In this document: positions 26,267-47,157 of the stretch, piece after piece | Layout: every line of letters starts with the position of its first letter | Numbering within the stretch: the first letter of the stretch is position 1 | The notes under the pieces: generated by a model | Seen by the model: the letters and a program-made list of their open reading frames with translations, nothing else | The model's database searches: none | What the model was told of the DNA's origin: nothing | Program-made: the position numbers and the translations under genes | Origin: Psychrobacillus psychrodurans | GTDB lineage: Bacteria > Bacillota > Bacilli > Bacillales_A > Planococcaceae | Direction: 5' to 3' | DNA: 64,000 nucleotides | Assembly: GCA_900114885.1 (NCBI GenBank) | Contig: FOUN01000002.1 | Span: forward strand, 62,001 to 126,000

Positions 26267-27580
26267 GTGTTGAGAAAACAGTCTAAATGGATGCTAAGAA
26301 TTATGGCGATAGCTACTACAGGTGCACTTTTAATAACAACACCAAGTGCTTTAGCTAATACTCTAGATGATTTAAAAAACGAACAAAAACAATTAGAACA
26401 AAAGAAAAATAGTATTGACTCAAATATTAAAGATACAGAAGGCAAGATTGACCAAAACGTATCAAAAATAGATCAAATTATGGCTCAAATAAAAGAGTTG
26501 GATACTAAGATTATTAGTACGGAATCTCAGATTGCTGAAGTGCTAAACCAAATTAAATTAACAACAACTGAGATTGAAAAATTACATGCTTCAATTAAAG
26601 AACTTGAAAGAAAAATTGAAGAGCGTGATGAACTATTAAAAGAACGAATCCGTGCAGTTCAAGTAAGTGGGGGTTCTGTTAGTTACCTAGATGTATTGCT
26701 AGGGGCAAATAGTTTCATCGATTTTATTGACCGCTTTTCTGCAGTCAATACGTTGATGGATGCAGACCGTACCATCTTAAAAGAACAGGCAGATGATAAA
26801 GCCCAATTAGAAGAGCAACAAGCAAGCCTAGAGAAAAAACTACAACAACAGGAAGATAGTAAAAATGAGCTTGTAAGTTTGAAGGCATCTCTAGACACTC
26901 AAAAGGCTTCAAAAGGTAATTTAGTAGATCAGTTAGAAGTAGAACAGGCTAAATTACATGAAGAAAAAGAAGTATTAGAAACAGAATATGACGAAATTCT
27001 AAACTTAAGCCAAGAAACGCAAAATAAAATTGTTGCTGAACAAAAAAGAATAGCAGAAATTGCAAGAAAAGCAGCTGAAGAAAAGAAACGTAAAGAAGCG
27101 GAAGAAAGAAAACGTCAGCAAGCAGCGAGTGGCGGTTCTTCTTCAGCCATACCAAATGTCTCTGCTGGTTCTTGGACTAGACCTGCATCTGGACGCTTCA
27201 CTTCTGGATATGGTAGTCGAACACACCCGATACATGGTGTAGTAAAAACTCACTATGGTATTGATATTGCAAACAGTACAGGTACCCCGGTAGTATCGGC
27301 TGCAGATGGAGTTGTTTCTTATGCTTCTCCGCTCAGCACATATGGAAATGTAATTATGGTAACTCATTCTATTGACGGTCAAATTTTTACTTCGCTATAT
27401 GCGCATTTAAGCAGTATTAAAGTAAGTAAAGGACAAGTTGTGTCGAAAGGGCAGATTATCGGTGGAATTGGTACTACTGGTAACTCTACTGGACCTCATT
27501 TGCATTTTGAAATTCATTTAGGAAACTGGGAAGGTATGGCGAAAAACTCTGTTAACCCATTGAGATATATTTCCTTATAA
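26267..27580 (+). CDS. Secreted coiled-coil M23 (LytM) peptidoglycan hydrolase, EnvC/PcsB-like partner of FtsEX
   Basis: 437 residues: signal peptide (about 1-29, cleaved after SALA), long coiled-coil (about 30-265, rich in EQKQLEQKKN-type heptads), a Ser-rich linker, and a C-terminal LytM domain (about 305-437). The zinc/catalytic residues are all present: His and Asp in THYGIDIA, YAHLS, and HLHFEIH. It is thus likely an active endopeptidase, unlike catalytically dead EnvC. B. subtilis FtsEX works through the NlpC/P60 enzyme CwlO, so an M23 enzyme next to ftsX is notable. Start GTG 26267 or TTG 26270 behind GAAGGGAG. Confidence 0.92.
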   Translation: MLRKQSKWMLRIMAIATTGALLITTPSALANTLDDLKNEQKQLEQKKNSIDSNIKDTEGKIDQNVSKIDQIMAQIKELDTKIISTESQIAEVLNQIKLTTTEIEKLHASIKELERKIEERDELLKERIRAVQVSGGSVSYLDVLLGANSFIDFIDRFSAVNTLMDADRTILKEQADDKAQLEEQQASLEKKLQQQEDSKNELVSLKASLDTQKASKGNLVDQLEVEQAKLHEEKEVLETEYDEILNLSQETQNKIVAEQKRIAEIARKAAEEKKRKEAEERKRQQAASGGSSSAIPNVSAGSWTRPASGRFTSGYGSRTHPIHGVVKTHYGIDIANSTGTPVVSAADGVVSYASPLSTYGNVIMVTHSIDGQIFTSLYAHLSSIKVSKGQVVSKGQIIGGIGTTGNSTGPHLHFEIHLGNWEGMAKNSVNPLRYISL

Positions 27581-27588
27581 TATTTAAA

Positions 27589-27626
27589 CAATGCTTCTCC
27601 AATCATGGAGAGGCGTTGTTTTTTTT
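27589..27626 (+). terminator. Terminator after the ftsEX-M23 operon
   Basis: CAATGCTTCTCC (27589-27600) pairs with GGAGAGGCGTTG (27607-27618), followed by eight Ts. Confidence 0.92.
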
Positions 27627-27710
27627 AGAATTAAAAAGTCTTAGAATTTAATAGAGTATTTCTACTACAATTCTCATAAAAGTTCTAGATAACGGTAAAC
27701 AGGGAATACT

Positions 27711-27820
27711 ATGATTTCCGTTTCACGCGGACGCTTTCCGAGGGCGGTCCGTGAGCCTCCTATGGAGTCTCGCCTGGACACGCAATTCCCGCTGAAGTCG
27801 CCACGTTACACTCCAATCAA
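27711..27820 (+). repeat. Family A repeat, copy 4
   Basis: Begins TGATTTCCGTTTC, contains GCGGACGCTTTCCGAGGGC and CCCGCTGAAGTCGCC, and ends CTCCAATCAA. It sits between the M23 gene terminator and the tandem array described next. Confidence 0.88.
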
Positions 27821-27954
27821 TATAAGTGAGTAGATATTACTTTATAATTGAACCGGATTAGTACTAAAAAACAATAATTAGAATCGGTTGATGAAATAGA
27901 GCGAACAGCAGTGTCCATTCGTATAGTAAGGATTTTTACCTTTACATCGAGAAA

Positions 27955-29690
27955 TCTCTGTTACTTGCTTGGGTATTTTGGATACTTGCTCTCATGTGAA
28001 TAATACTTGCATTATACTTCAAGATACTTGTGTATATTCATTGTTTACTTGCTCTCGATGTAGATCAACTTAAGTAATGGGGATTTTATCCATTTATTTG
28101 GTGTCTTTTATCTTATTTATGTAATAATTCGTTCCTTTAGAAAATCAATTCTATTTCATCGGTGAAAAATAGGATGTGTGCCTTCCAAGCTGCATGAGCG
28201 CGAAGAATGAGACTTCAAAAAGGATGAAGGAGTGTAAGCGACCATCCTTGAAGGCTCATGCGTAGCGTGCGGCAAGCATACATCCGGATAGAAAGTTTCT
28301 TTATGATAAAATTTCTACCTGATGATTAGTTACTTGCTTTGGTAGGTTGAATACTTGCGGTCAAAGGAATAATACTTGTGGTCATGTAGATAATACTTGC
28401 ATATATGGATCGTTTACTTGTTCTAGATGCAAATTTACTTTCGAAAAGGAATAATTCTCCTTTTATTGAAAAATCAATTCTACTTCATCGGCTTAAAATA
28501 GGAGGTGTGCCTTCACAAGTCGCAAGAGCGCGAAGTATGAGACTTCATAAAGGAGGAAGGAGCGTCAGTGGCCATCCTTGAAGGCTCATGCGTAGCGTGC
28601 GGCAAGCATACATCCGGATAGAAAGTTTCTTTATGATAAAATTTTTCTACCTGATAATTAGTAACTTGCTTTGGTAGGTTGAATACTTGTGGTCATGTAG
28701 ATAATACTTGCATATATGGATCGTTTACTTGTTCTAAATGCATTTTACTTGCGAAAGGGAATAATTATCCTTTTATTGATGGAAATCTTTATACTACTAA
28801 TGTGATAATCCGTTCTTTTAGAAATTCAACTCTATTTCACCGGTGAAAAATAGGATGTGTGCCTTCCAAGCCGCATGAGCGAAAAGAATGAGACTTCAAA
28901 AAGGATGAAGGAGCGTAAGCGACCATCCTTGAAGGCTCATGCGTAGCGTACGGCAGCGCACATCTGGATAGAAAGTTTCTTAATGATAAAACTTCTACCT
29001 GATGATAAGTTACTTGCTTAGGTAGGTTGAATACTTGTGGTCATGTAGATAATACTTGCATATATGGATAATTTACTTGCTCTAAATGCGTTTTACTTGC
29101 GAAAAGGAATAATTATCCTTTTATTGATGGAAATCTTTATACTACTAATGTGATAATCCGTTCCTTTAGAAATTCAACTCTATTTCATCGGTGAAAAATA
29201 GGATGTGTGCCTTCCAAGCCGCATGAGCGCGAAGAATGAGACTTCAGAAAGGGTGAAGGAGCTTAAGCGACCATCCTTGAAGGCTCATGCGTAGCGTGCG
29301 GCAAGCACACATCCGTATAGAAATTTTCTTAATGATAAAATTTATACCTGATGATTAGTTACTTGCTTTGGTAGGTTGAATACTTGCGGTCAAATGAATA
29401 ATACTTGCATCTATGGATAATTTACTTGCTCTAAATGCATTTTACTTGCGAAAGGGAATAATTATCCTTTTATTGATGGAAATCTTTCTACTACTAATGT
29501 GACAATTCGTTCCTTTAGAAATCAATTCTATTTCATTGTCGAAAAATAGGATGTGCGCCTTCCAAGCCGCATGAGCTCGAAGAATGAGACTTCAGAGAGG
29601 TGAAGGAGCTTAAGCGACCATCCTTGAAGGCTCATGCGTAGCGTGCGGCAGCGCACATCCGTTTAGAAGGTTTCTATATGGAAGATTCAA
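27955..29690. repeat. Five tandem ~350-bp composite units: phased TACTTGC array plus structured palindrome
   Basis: Units begin near 27961, 28330, 28662, 29010 and 29359; a second landmark (AGGATGTGTG or variant) recurs at 28171, 28500, 28852, 29200 and 29548, so the period is 329-369 bp. Each unit opens with 5-6 heptamers TACTTGC/TACTTGT at a 21-bp pitch (the last step is sometimes 20). A CTTTTATTGATGGAAATCTTT-type spacer is followed by a ~115-bp palindrome. Eighteen exact TACTTGC copies are visible. No reading frame of note crosses the region and no transposase is present. Together with 27627-27954 and 29691-29793 this is a 2.2-kb gene-free region. Confidence 0.9.
28172..28285. repeat. Palindromic element within unit 1 of the tandem array
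   Basis: Outer arms GGATGTGTGC and GCATACATCC. Inner complementary pairs are GCATGAGC with GCTCATGC, and GACTTCAAAAAGGATG with CATCCTTGAAGG. Equivalent elements lie at 28501-28615, 28853-28965, 29201-29314 and 29549-29660; in units 4 and 5 the arms read GCACACATCC and GCGCACATCC. As RNA it would fold into a long multi-bulge hairpin. Confidence 0.8.
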
Positions 29691-29793
29691 GTCACTACAT
29701 AGTCACATTTGAGCTCATTTAATTCGTATTTAACGCAACAGATAACATATAATAAGGGCAGTGAAATATTATCGTACCAGTAGGAGGTATAAT

Positions 29794-30372
29794 ATGAAGA
29801 AAAAAGTTATTGGACTAGTAGTTATAGCTGCATTAGTAGCAATCGCAACAATATCCTTTGTAAGAGATAATATTGATGAACAAGAAGCATTTGCGGGCGA
29901 GCAAATGGGTACAGATTTAGCGAACAATGCTGCAAACGAAGGTTTAGGAAAAGGAAATGCAGCACCTAATTTTACTCTGACTACACTAGCGGGCGAGGAA
30001 GTCACACTCGCAGATTATAAAGGAAAGAAAGTTGTATTAAATTTTTGGGCAACTTGGTGTCCTCCTTGTAAAGCAGAGATGCCACATATGCAAAACTATT
30101 ATGAAGATATGGCAGAGAAAGAAAATGTGGAAATTTTAGCGGTCAATTTGACAAGTACTGATACTGGTCTGGACAAAGTCAAAGCGTTTCAAGAAGATTA
30201 TGCACTTAGCTTTCCTATACCACTAGATGAGGAAGGGATAGTTGGGGAAACATATCAAGCGATTACAATACCAACTACTTATATGATAGATACTACGGGA
30301 ATCATTCAAAATAAGATTGTTGGACCGATGGACGAGCAAATGTTGACAGACTATGTGAGTAATTTAAAATAA
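29794..30372 (+). CDS. Membrane-anchored thiol-disulfide oxidoreductase, ResA/TlpA-like
   Basis: Extracytoplasmic thioredoxin-fold protein, probably reducing disulfides on exported apo-cytochrome c or similar targets. The ATG at 29794 has TAGGAGGT (29781-29788) ahead and yields 192 residues: an uncleaved N-terminal anchor (about 4-22), a linker, then a TlpA/AhpC-type domain from about 50. The active site is WATWCPPCKAEMP. The cis-Pro segment ITIPTTYMID is present. The context next to ctpB and, further upstream, cccB is compatible with envelope or cytochrome maturation, but the target is not determined. Confidence 0.9.
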   Translation: MKKKVIGLVVIAALVAIATISFVRDNIDEQEAFAGEQMGTDLANNAANEGLGKGNAAPNFTLTTLAGEEVTLADYKGKKVVLNFWATWCPPCKAEMPHMQNYYEDMAEKENVEILAVNLTSTDTGLDKVKAFQEDYALSFPIPLDEEGIVGETYQAITIPTTYMIDTTGIIQNKIVGPMDEQMLTDYVSNLK

Positions 30373-36395: not shown

Positions 36396-36430
36396 TTACT
36401 ATATCAAATTTTGGAAAAATTTCCCGTTCC

Positions 36431-36542
36431 GCAAGTAAATTAGCATCGAGAGCAAGTAAACAGACAGTAAGCGCAAGTAACTAATATAGTAAAGCAAGTA
36501 AAATCCTTAGAAACGCAAGTAATCAACATGACATCGCAAGTA
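36431..36542. repeat. 21-bp phased heptamer array, GCAAGTA type (reverse complement of TACTTGC)
   Basis: GCAAGTA occurs at 36431, 36452, 36473, 36494, 36515 and 36536: six perfect copies at exactly 21-bp steps, with unrelated 14-bp spacers. It lies 43 bp past the signal-peptidase terminator and about 250 bp before addB. It is the same motif as the 27.9-29.7 kb array, in the opposite orientation. Confidence 0.92.
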
Positions 36543-36657
36543 ACATGTGAAAGTTTAGGTTTTGATGTCTCTCTCTATTTAACCTTTTCAATTATCGTTA
36601 TTATAATATTTATTCTGCCCAATCTTATAGTTTATAACTACTCTCTAATTTAATGGA

Positions 36658-46846: not shown

Positions 46847-47005
46847 TTATGAGCTATATGTTCGATGTTATGGGATATTTCGTTACACTTTTGGGCTAAA
46901 GTGGAGAATTTAAGGGCTATATCGAATTTTATAAGCTTCTATTGATGATTTATGGGCTTATCCGTAAACGTTTAAGGGCAATTTTAATCTCGCATAAAGC
47001 AAGTA
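46847..47005. repeat. 21-bp phased heptamer array, TTATGGG type
   Basis: TTATGAG at 46847, TTATGGG at 46868, TTTTGGG at 46889 and TTAAGGG at 46910 are spaced exactly 21 bp. Beyond that the phase drifts: ATAAGCT near 46931, TTATGGG at 46950, TTAAGGG at 46972. A single GCAAGTA follows at 46999. It lies in the gap between the 53-aa gene and the GH13-like gene; 47006-47140 shows nothing else. Confidence 0.6.
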
Positions 47006-47157
47006 ACCGCCTAAATAGTAGATTTTATGATTACTTTGAAACCTGTCACAGTTTGGACTAAATATTATAGATATTTATTGCTTTAATTGCGAAACGATAG
47101 CGATTAAAACATTGCTTTGATAAAATAATATGTATATGCGTCAAAGGAGGATTTACC

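Follow-up and report, generated by a model that had tools for sequence, protein, structure and literature searches.

Interspersed intergenic arrays of short words at a two-helical-turn pitch in Psychrobacillus and other Bacillales

The iterons of plasmid and phage origins (22 bp in R6K, 19 bp in P1 and F) are direct repeats spaced at about two helical turns; they lie close to an A+T-rich or palindromic stretch, and an initiator binds them from one side of the helix. REP/BIME elements are short hairpins mobilised by RAYT (Y1) transposases, and in intergenic minisatellites (VNTRs) the whole repeat unit is normally alike. Heptamer repeats of the sequence TAACTGA in Beggiatoaceae are reported to lie mostly just upstream of start codons (PMC4679880).

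The DNA analysed here, a 64-kb stretch of the Psychrobacillus psychrodurans genome (hereafter the window), contains arrays in which a heptamer, TACTTGC or TACTTGT (TACTTGY, hereafter the A word), recurs at 21-bp steps between variable spacers. A preliminary description had noted five such units in tandem. These are one case of a genome-wide class of arrays.

Anatomy of the arrays

The features of the window are collected in Table 1. The genes beside its arrays encode an M23/PcsB-like peptidase, a thioredoxin-like protein, a signal peptidase and AddB, and the array at 36413..36543 sits between the signal peptidase (S26) gene and addB. The degenerate array, built on a TTATGGGCTAT-like word (hereafter the D word), ends in a single leftover A heptamer (GCAAGTAA). 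Matches to TACTTGY-N14-TACTTGY with at most two mismatches number 33 in the window against a mean of 1.85 expected, and none of 100 shuffles reaches 33.

Table 1. Arrays and hairpin repeats located in the window
Feature	Position	Strand	Description
A-family array, tandem copy 1	27961..28073	+	5 intact heptamers (starts 27962, 27983, 28004, 28025, 28046, read against the sequence) and a decayed sixth (AACTTAA, 28067); pitch 21 bp
A-family array, tandem copy 2	28330..28460	+	6 heptamers (starts 28331, 28352, 28373, 28394, 28415; sixth at 28436, TACTTTC); steps 21, 21, 21, 21, 21, then tail GAAAAGGAATAATTCTCC
A-family array, tandem copy 3	28662..28752	+	5 heptamers; steps 21, 21, 21, 20; first is AACTTGC (28663)
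A-family array, tandem copy 4	29010..29100	+	5 heptamers; steps 21, 21, 21, 20
A-family array, tandem copy 5	29359..29449	+	5 heptamers; steps 21, 21, 21, 20
Second A-family array	36413..36543 (heptamers 36431-36542)	-	6 heptamers at exact 21-bp pitch and tail GGAACGGGAAATTTTTCC
Degenerate D-word array	46847..47006	+	about 21-bp pitch; read by eye, unscored by the period scan
Hairpin repeat after array copy 1	28171..28286	+	about 115 nt, GGATGTGTGCCTTC ... GCACACATCC
Hairpin repeat equivalents	about 28499-28615, 28852-28965, 29201-29314, 29549-29661		read off the sequence

The heptamer positions first given for units 1 and 2 agree with the sequence; in unit 2 the first five heptamers are intact and the sixth is not. 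The steps reported for units 3, 4 and 5 match as well. The preliminary description had also proposed a tandem unit of about 350 bp. Its five copies are real, with successive starts 369, 332, 348 and 349 bp apart, but the unit is a locally amplified composite of an array and a separate hairpin repeat and is not the basic element. When folded, the third copy of the hairpin repeat gives a z score of -4.83; partial matches to this repeat occur elsewhere in the P. psychrodurans genome and also beside A arrays at some sites in relatives. An Rfam scan of 27500-29800 returned one hit outside the arrays (21.1 bits against a gathering score of 80), and the hairpin repeat had no match. A further repeat (GCGGACGCTTTCCG.GGGCGGTCCGTGAGCC) occupies 27716-27815, just before array copy 1, and similar repeats stand in tandem at the addB site of the related genome G136.

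Arrays of six units predominate. Among 29 entries in the P. psychrodurans genome, 18 have six units, seven have five (four of these being tandem copies of the window) and four are merged tandem blocks. Among 28 entries in the related genome G138, six units occur in 16, five in seven, four in three, three in one and nine in one. Over the stretches read in both genomes, 34 of 53 separate arrays have six heptamers; the two sets of loci are partly orthologous and hence not independent, here as in the placement, period-scan, pitch and orientation counts below. The scanner allowed any number of units and was tuned to the A word, as were the scanners of bit content and of orthologous sites. A tail such as GGAACGGGATATTTATCC recurs 3' of the last heptamer in the P. 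psychrodurans arrays printed. Whole elements stand in tandem at several sites with different DNA between them, at steps of about 186, 226, 217-238 and 326 bp and, for the tandem copies of the window, 332-369 bp.

Abundance, pitch and word conservation

The preliminary description had named as refuting a frequency of 21-bp-phased copies no higher than in shuffled controls, which is not what the genome shows. Exact TACTTGY-N14-TACTTGY occurs 352 times in the whole genome (160 forward and 192 reverse; 4,015,297 bases, 47 contigs), whereas a reversed control pattern occurs once. Same-strand distances between heptamers in the 464 kb read, a count not limited by scanner step settings, are 21 bp in 149 cases, 20 bp in 14 and 22 bp in one. 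The mean pitch is thus 20.9 bp, or about 10.5 bp per helical turn, and because this amounts to two helical turns the words lie on one face of the DNA. The scanned arrays of P. psychrodurans and G138 give 218 steps of 21 bp, 26 of 20 and one of 22 (mean 20.90), counts that are bounded by construction because the scanner permits steps of 20-22 bp alone. One set of array chains was filtered at spacer identity under 0.6.

Periods of 14-45 bp were also scanned, with no motif named, in 410 intergenic stretches (192,838 bp) of the same two genomes; a hit required eight conserved phases, the remaining positions being variable. All 45 variable-spacer arrays that this yielded have period 21 (none at 14-20 or 22-45), and one mononucleotide-shuffled set gave no hits. 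Lowering the cut-off raised the count at period 21 to 74 and added a single hit at 42, with the other periods still empty. A caveat is that the choice of regions was guided in part by their arrays.

A similarity query with a whole element found 60 matches in the P. psychrodurans genome. The query and the 18 of these matches that cover most of the array make 19 rows, of which 15 were aligned (L380, L386, L390 and L397, near contig ends, were left out), and their consensus has six words at exactly 21 bp. Among these dispersed copies the words are preferentially conserved: 22 of 720 word letters (3.1%) differ from the consensus, against 186 of 972 in the spacers (19.1%, p=1.4e-26), as the preliminary description had held in stating that word and pitch are kept while spacers diverge. 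In the 62 bp after the array, 189 of 893 letters differ. Spacers are position-specific and common to dispersed copies and to orthologues, which indicates that arrays were copied whole. The information content at most spacer positions of the arrays is about 0.1-0.2 bits; it is far higher at word positions, which were selected by the pattern.

A comparison of orthologous arrays between the two genomes points the same way before correction. Taken from P. psychrodurans to G138, 22 of 328 word letters and 78 of 433 spacer letters have changed (p = 4e-6); taken from G138, the figures are 24 of 342 and 89 of 447 (p = 2e-7). The rates taken from P. psychrodurans to G138 come from seven rows at five distinct sites, three rows being tandem copies matched to one G138 array; the pair 158085/896010 (words 8/48, spacers 28/65), which fell under the identity cut, is omitted. 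Since the arrays were chosen by their words in one genome, half the spacer rate is a fair lower bound for comparison, and against this conservative one-branch neutral rate the advantage of the words is not significant (p=0.28 based on P. psychrodurans, 0.20 based on G138). Word conservation is therefore established among dispersed copies, and selection, acting either at each site or via the copying, may account for it.

Word families, genomic placement and turnover

Several words share one pitch. Besides the A word, scans of P. psychrodurans and G138 found CTATACGAGAG, TTATGTGG, ATGTTGCG and CTTGCGATT at 21 bp, some of these additional words resembling parts of the A word. Arrays of the D word occur in G140. 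Triples of TTATGGGC number 15 in G140 and one in P. psychrodurans (2 of 19 genus genomes), and those of CTCTCGTAT occur in G138, G136, G125 and G140 (4 of 19). In 13 of the 19 genus genomes there is no match to the array pattern used. G138 also has a block of about 1 kb (C1:977380-978400) in which ATGTTGCG units, spaced 20-21 bp apart, build a higher-order repeat of about 102 bp.

Of the 261 genomes and 19 genera of the family, 20 genomes in 8 genera have the strict TACTTGY triple, and 23 genomes in 9 genera have the looser TTTACTNNC triple; some genomes from two further genera match a reversed control of the looser pattern as well. The two N of TTTACTNNC are mostly constant per genome among the matches listed (i.e. 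TG, CC, GG, CG/CA, TA or AC). The arrays of G103 hold a 20-bp pitch, and G025 has runs of near-identical 21-bp units.

In Fictibacillus, nine of 11 loci have six units (L059, L063, L091, L110, L114, L123, L102, L109 and L127). L102 was called with seven, the first with three mismatches, and is counted as six; L109 and L127 have one TAGTTGC unit each; and L114 and L123 are near-duplicate arrays from one genome. The L055 array is cut by the locus end, and in L125 four TACTTGC units give way to units built on a TTACTCAC word. A common tail like AAAACACATCATTTTCATAAA or ATATCACGTCATTTTCAT follows the Fictibacillus arrays. Many spacers of L055, L109, L114, L123, L125 and L127 contain TTCGACA, which we take to equal the Spo0A-box consensus; its recurrence is likely due to chance and duplication. 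Elsewhere, an uncultured Bacillaceae locus (L112) has six units, Metabacillus L084 five, Ureibacillus L087 and L133 four and five, and Bacillus sp. 522_BSPC 8 and 15. Among 17 four-heptamer matches listed, six loci outside Bacillales and those in Brevibacillus and Paenibacillus were rejected, having near-identical spacers or contiguous heptamers. The triple patterns also have matches in viral contigs (84 and 19 stretches, most with a single match), and carriage by viruses is possible. A 501-bp array query (window 28300-28800) had no match in 72,556 plasmid and 50,697 phage records, a search that would miss arrays with other spacers.

The arrays are intergenic. None of the 20 P. psychrodurans loci first mapped overlaps a gene called with our home-made hexamer model. 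With the same gene calls, 39 of 41 loci of P. psychrodurans and G138 were placed in intergenic stretches of at least 100 bp (two near a contig end were left out): 29 lie between tandem genes, 10 between convergent genes and none between divergent genes, where 5.6 would be expected from length (p = 0.0023), so that every placed locus is 3' of at least one gene. In tandem settings, 10 arrays run in the direction of the genes and 19 against it (p=0.14). Terminator-like hairpins within 100 bp are no commoner for arrays (0.44) than for random positions in the same intergenic stretches (0.50). Clustering at the replication terminus was considered and rejected: the GC skew in stretches sampled from G138 indicates a terminus at about 0.2 Mb and an origin at about 2.1 Mb, and the main cluster, from the 100 of 123 pairs listed, lies at 1.3-1.65 Mb.

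When 25 P. psychrodurans arrays were compared with syntenic G138 DNA, seven rows had clear orthologues, 15 were absent or too diverged and three could not be placed. The 15 include the five window tandem copies and an array at C8:286375 that is inverted in place in G138. For the arrays at 259931, 314633, 329402 and 158085, G138 shows a counterpart that is partial or decayed; those at 163124, 359506, 381953, 180738 and 254407 look truly absent. One site carries an array in G136, G138 and G125, with varying decay, and a remnant in G140, and is empty in P. psychrodurans and G130, whose junctions are nearly alike; inspection by eye of the cleanest filled and empty site showed no clear element ends or target-site duplication. 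For an 8-kb Psychrobacillus antarcticus locus (L089), about 7.1 kb aligned with the P. psychrodurans genome at 83.5-85.1% identity.

Words can also be exchanged at one place. Where P. psychrodurans has A arrays, at C8:359506 and at 381 kb, G138 has the CTATACGAGAG word, which P. antarcticus also carries at the 381-kb site, and at the site of the degenerate D-word array of the window G138 has a six-unit A array. The addB-side array of the window keeps its place and orientation in G138 and G125 and is decayed in G130 and G140; in the stretch read, G136 has a different repeat there. Counting decayed ones, this site is occupied in six species. All comparisons of presence and absence are between species, not strains. 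This turnover among close relatives suggests that the elements are an interspersed repeat, which may be mobile, and not just a regulatory array.

Interpretation and comparison with known systems

We see an even chance that the arrays are a non-coding interspersed element with, at its core, a platform of six sites on one face of the helix for a putative cooperative DNA-binding protein. About six short identical words, two helical turns apart, would share one face of the DNA, and a putative sequence-specific protein would bind them cooperatively. The resulting nucleoprotein may serve the copying and insertion of the element by a putative enzyme acting in trans, with the local tandem amplification at 27.96-29.66 kb being secondary. 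The word, and presumably also its binder, would change between lineages while the spacing is held. We infer action as DNA rather than RNA from the lack of a significant orientation rule relative to genes, the absence of RNA structure in the folded arrays and the inversion at an orthologous site. The small recurring number of sites could reflect the need of an oligomer of set size, and common descent from a six-unit ancestor could also explain it. Against this reading, no binding protein, transposase, terminal repeats or target duplication turned up, the advantage of the words between orthologues is not significant against the neutral rate, and arrays of other lengths exist (four units in one Fictibacillus array, five in Metabacillus, four and five in Ureibacillus, 8 and 15 in Bacillus sp. 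522_BSPC). More tentatively, it may be the geometry rather than the word that is conserved in Bacillales, i.e. a row of about six sites, spaced at two turns, in the intergenic DNA 3' of genes; words (TTTACTNNC variants, CTATACGAGAG, TTATGTGG, TTATGGGCTAT and others) would swap between lineages and even within one site, and each would have its own reader in a putative DNA-binding protein family whose oligomer fixes pitch and count.

The main rival to a binding platform is a host role at gene ends, in which arrays would be kept site by site and a bound host protein would organise the nucleoid or block transcription or replication past gene ends. We hold this to be possible but doubtful. The conservation of words over spacers, the persistence of some arrays at orthologous sites in the same orientation (e.g. 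beside addB) and the lack of divergent-gene sites are all consistent with it. However, arrays are absent from syntenic sites, inverted in one case and replaced by another word family in others; they decay in G130 and G140, their main cluster among the listed G138 pairs lies away from the terminus, and most genus genomes have no match to the pattern used. Passive growth of a minisatellite, in which slippage multiplies 21-bp units and the words are kept by chance or through mutational bias, seems unlikely. A difference of 42 bp (two whole units) between P. psychrodurans and G138 at one array, the tandem amplification of whole arrays and the ordinary minisatellite growth that the runs in G025 resemble speak for it, but low information at most spacer positions, spacers that differ six times more than words in dispersed copies found without the word, the mode at six and the single period all argue against it.

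Action as a transcript, whether a regulatory RNA or an mRNA 3' end, would agree with the position of each placed locus 3' of a gene, but we consider it quite improbable, given the lack of a significant strand preference, the array inverted in place and the absence of an Rfam family at 27500-29800; the two arrays folded are, moreover, less structured than shuffled sequence (z +1.67 and +2.72 on the two strands of one, +1.02 on one strand of the other). The length of seven codons would suit a relic of a gene with heptapeptide repeats, which the preliminary description had judged unlikely; the 18 six-unit arrays of P. psychrodurans average 0.44 open frames of six against 0.51 when shuffled, and together with the frame-breaking 20-bp steps and the position outside called genes this refutes it for practical purposes. 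A CRISPR-like memory with very short repeats and spacers would likewise explain a conserved repeat, a variable spacer and a fixed period, but hardly spacers that are position-specific and common to dispersed copies and orthologues, a count that is mostly six or the many dispersed copies, and we give it next to no credence.

If the arrays bind protein, a DNA-binding protein occupies 3' intergenic space in several Bacillales genera, and a strict pitch with swappable words offers a natural experiment on how oligomer geometry constrains DNA recognition. If they are mobile, they form a family of interspersed repeats set apart from REP and MITE elements by a multi-site core, which matters for interpreting intergenic DNA in Psychrobacillus, Ureibacillus and Fictibacillus genomes.

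A literature search found no description of such arrays in open-access sources, in keeping with the preliminary statement that no bacterial element of this layout was known; subscription papers were outside its scope and the novelty is hence provisional. With REP/BIME elements the arrays share an interspersed, intergenic, lineage-specific distribution and tandem clusters, but the two folded arrays are unstructured direct repeats, less stable than shuffled sequence. RAYT-like Y1 transposases are not supported as array partners: 18 of 19 genus genomes have one to three matches, with or without arrays, and no array flanks any of the nine copies inspected. Five of these nine genes have isolated heptamers just downstream, which proved on inspection not to form 21-bp arrays. 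The RAYT-like genes of P. psychrodurans lie at G000:C8:538785 and G000:C9:42579 (L435 and L436). Y1 transposases may be partnered with the hairpin repeats and not with the arrays.

Minisatellites resemble the arrays in their tandem units of about 21 bp and unit-sized length differences, whereas in the arrays only the word is alike and the spacers are not. CRISPR arrays have a constant repeat, a variable spacer and a fixed period, whereas the word here is 7-9 bp and the spacers are position-specific and common to loci. MITEs, as non-autonomous transposons, likewise show dispersed copies and presence/absence differences between species. In contrast to the Beggiatoaceae TAACTGA repeats as reported (PMC4679880), the arrays have a 21-bp pitch, variable spacers and no divergent-gene sites. 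Iterons are like them in being direct repeats at about two helical turns (149 steps of 21 bp and 14 of 20 bp here), but the arrays are scattered intergenically over the chromosome, with no replication gene beside those of the window. In brief, the arrays depart from REP/RAYT elements, CRISPR arrays and minisatellites in at least one defining trait, show no clear MITE-like ends at the site inspected, and share the pitch of iterons, not their setting.
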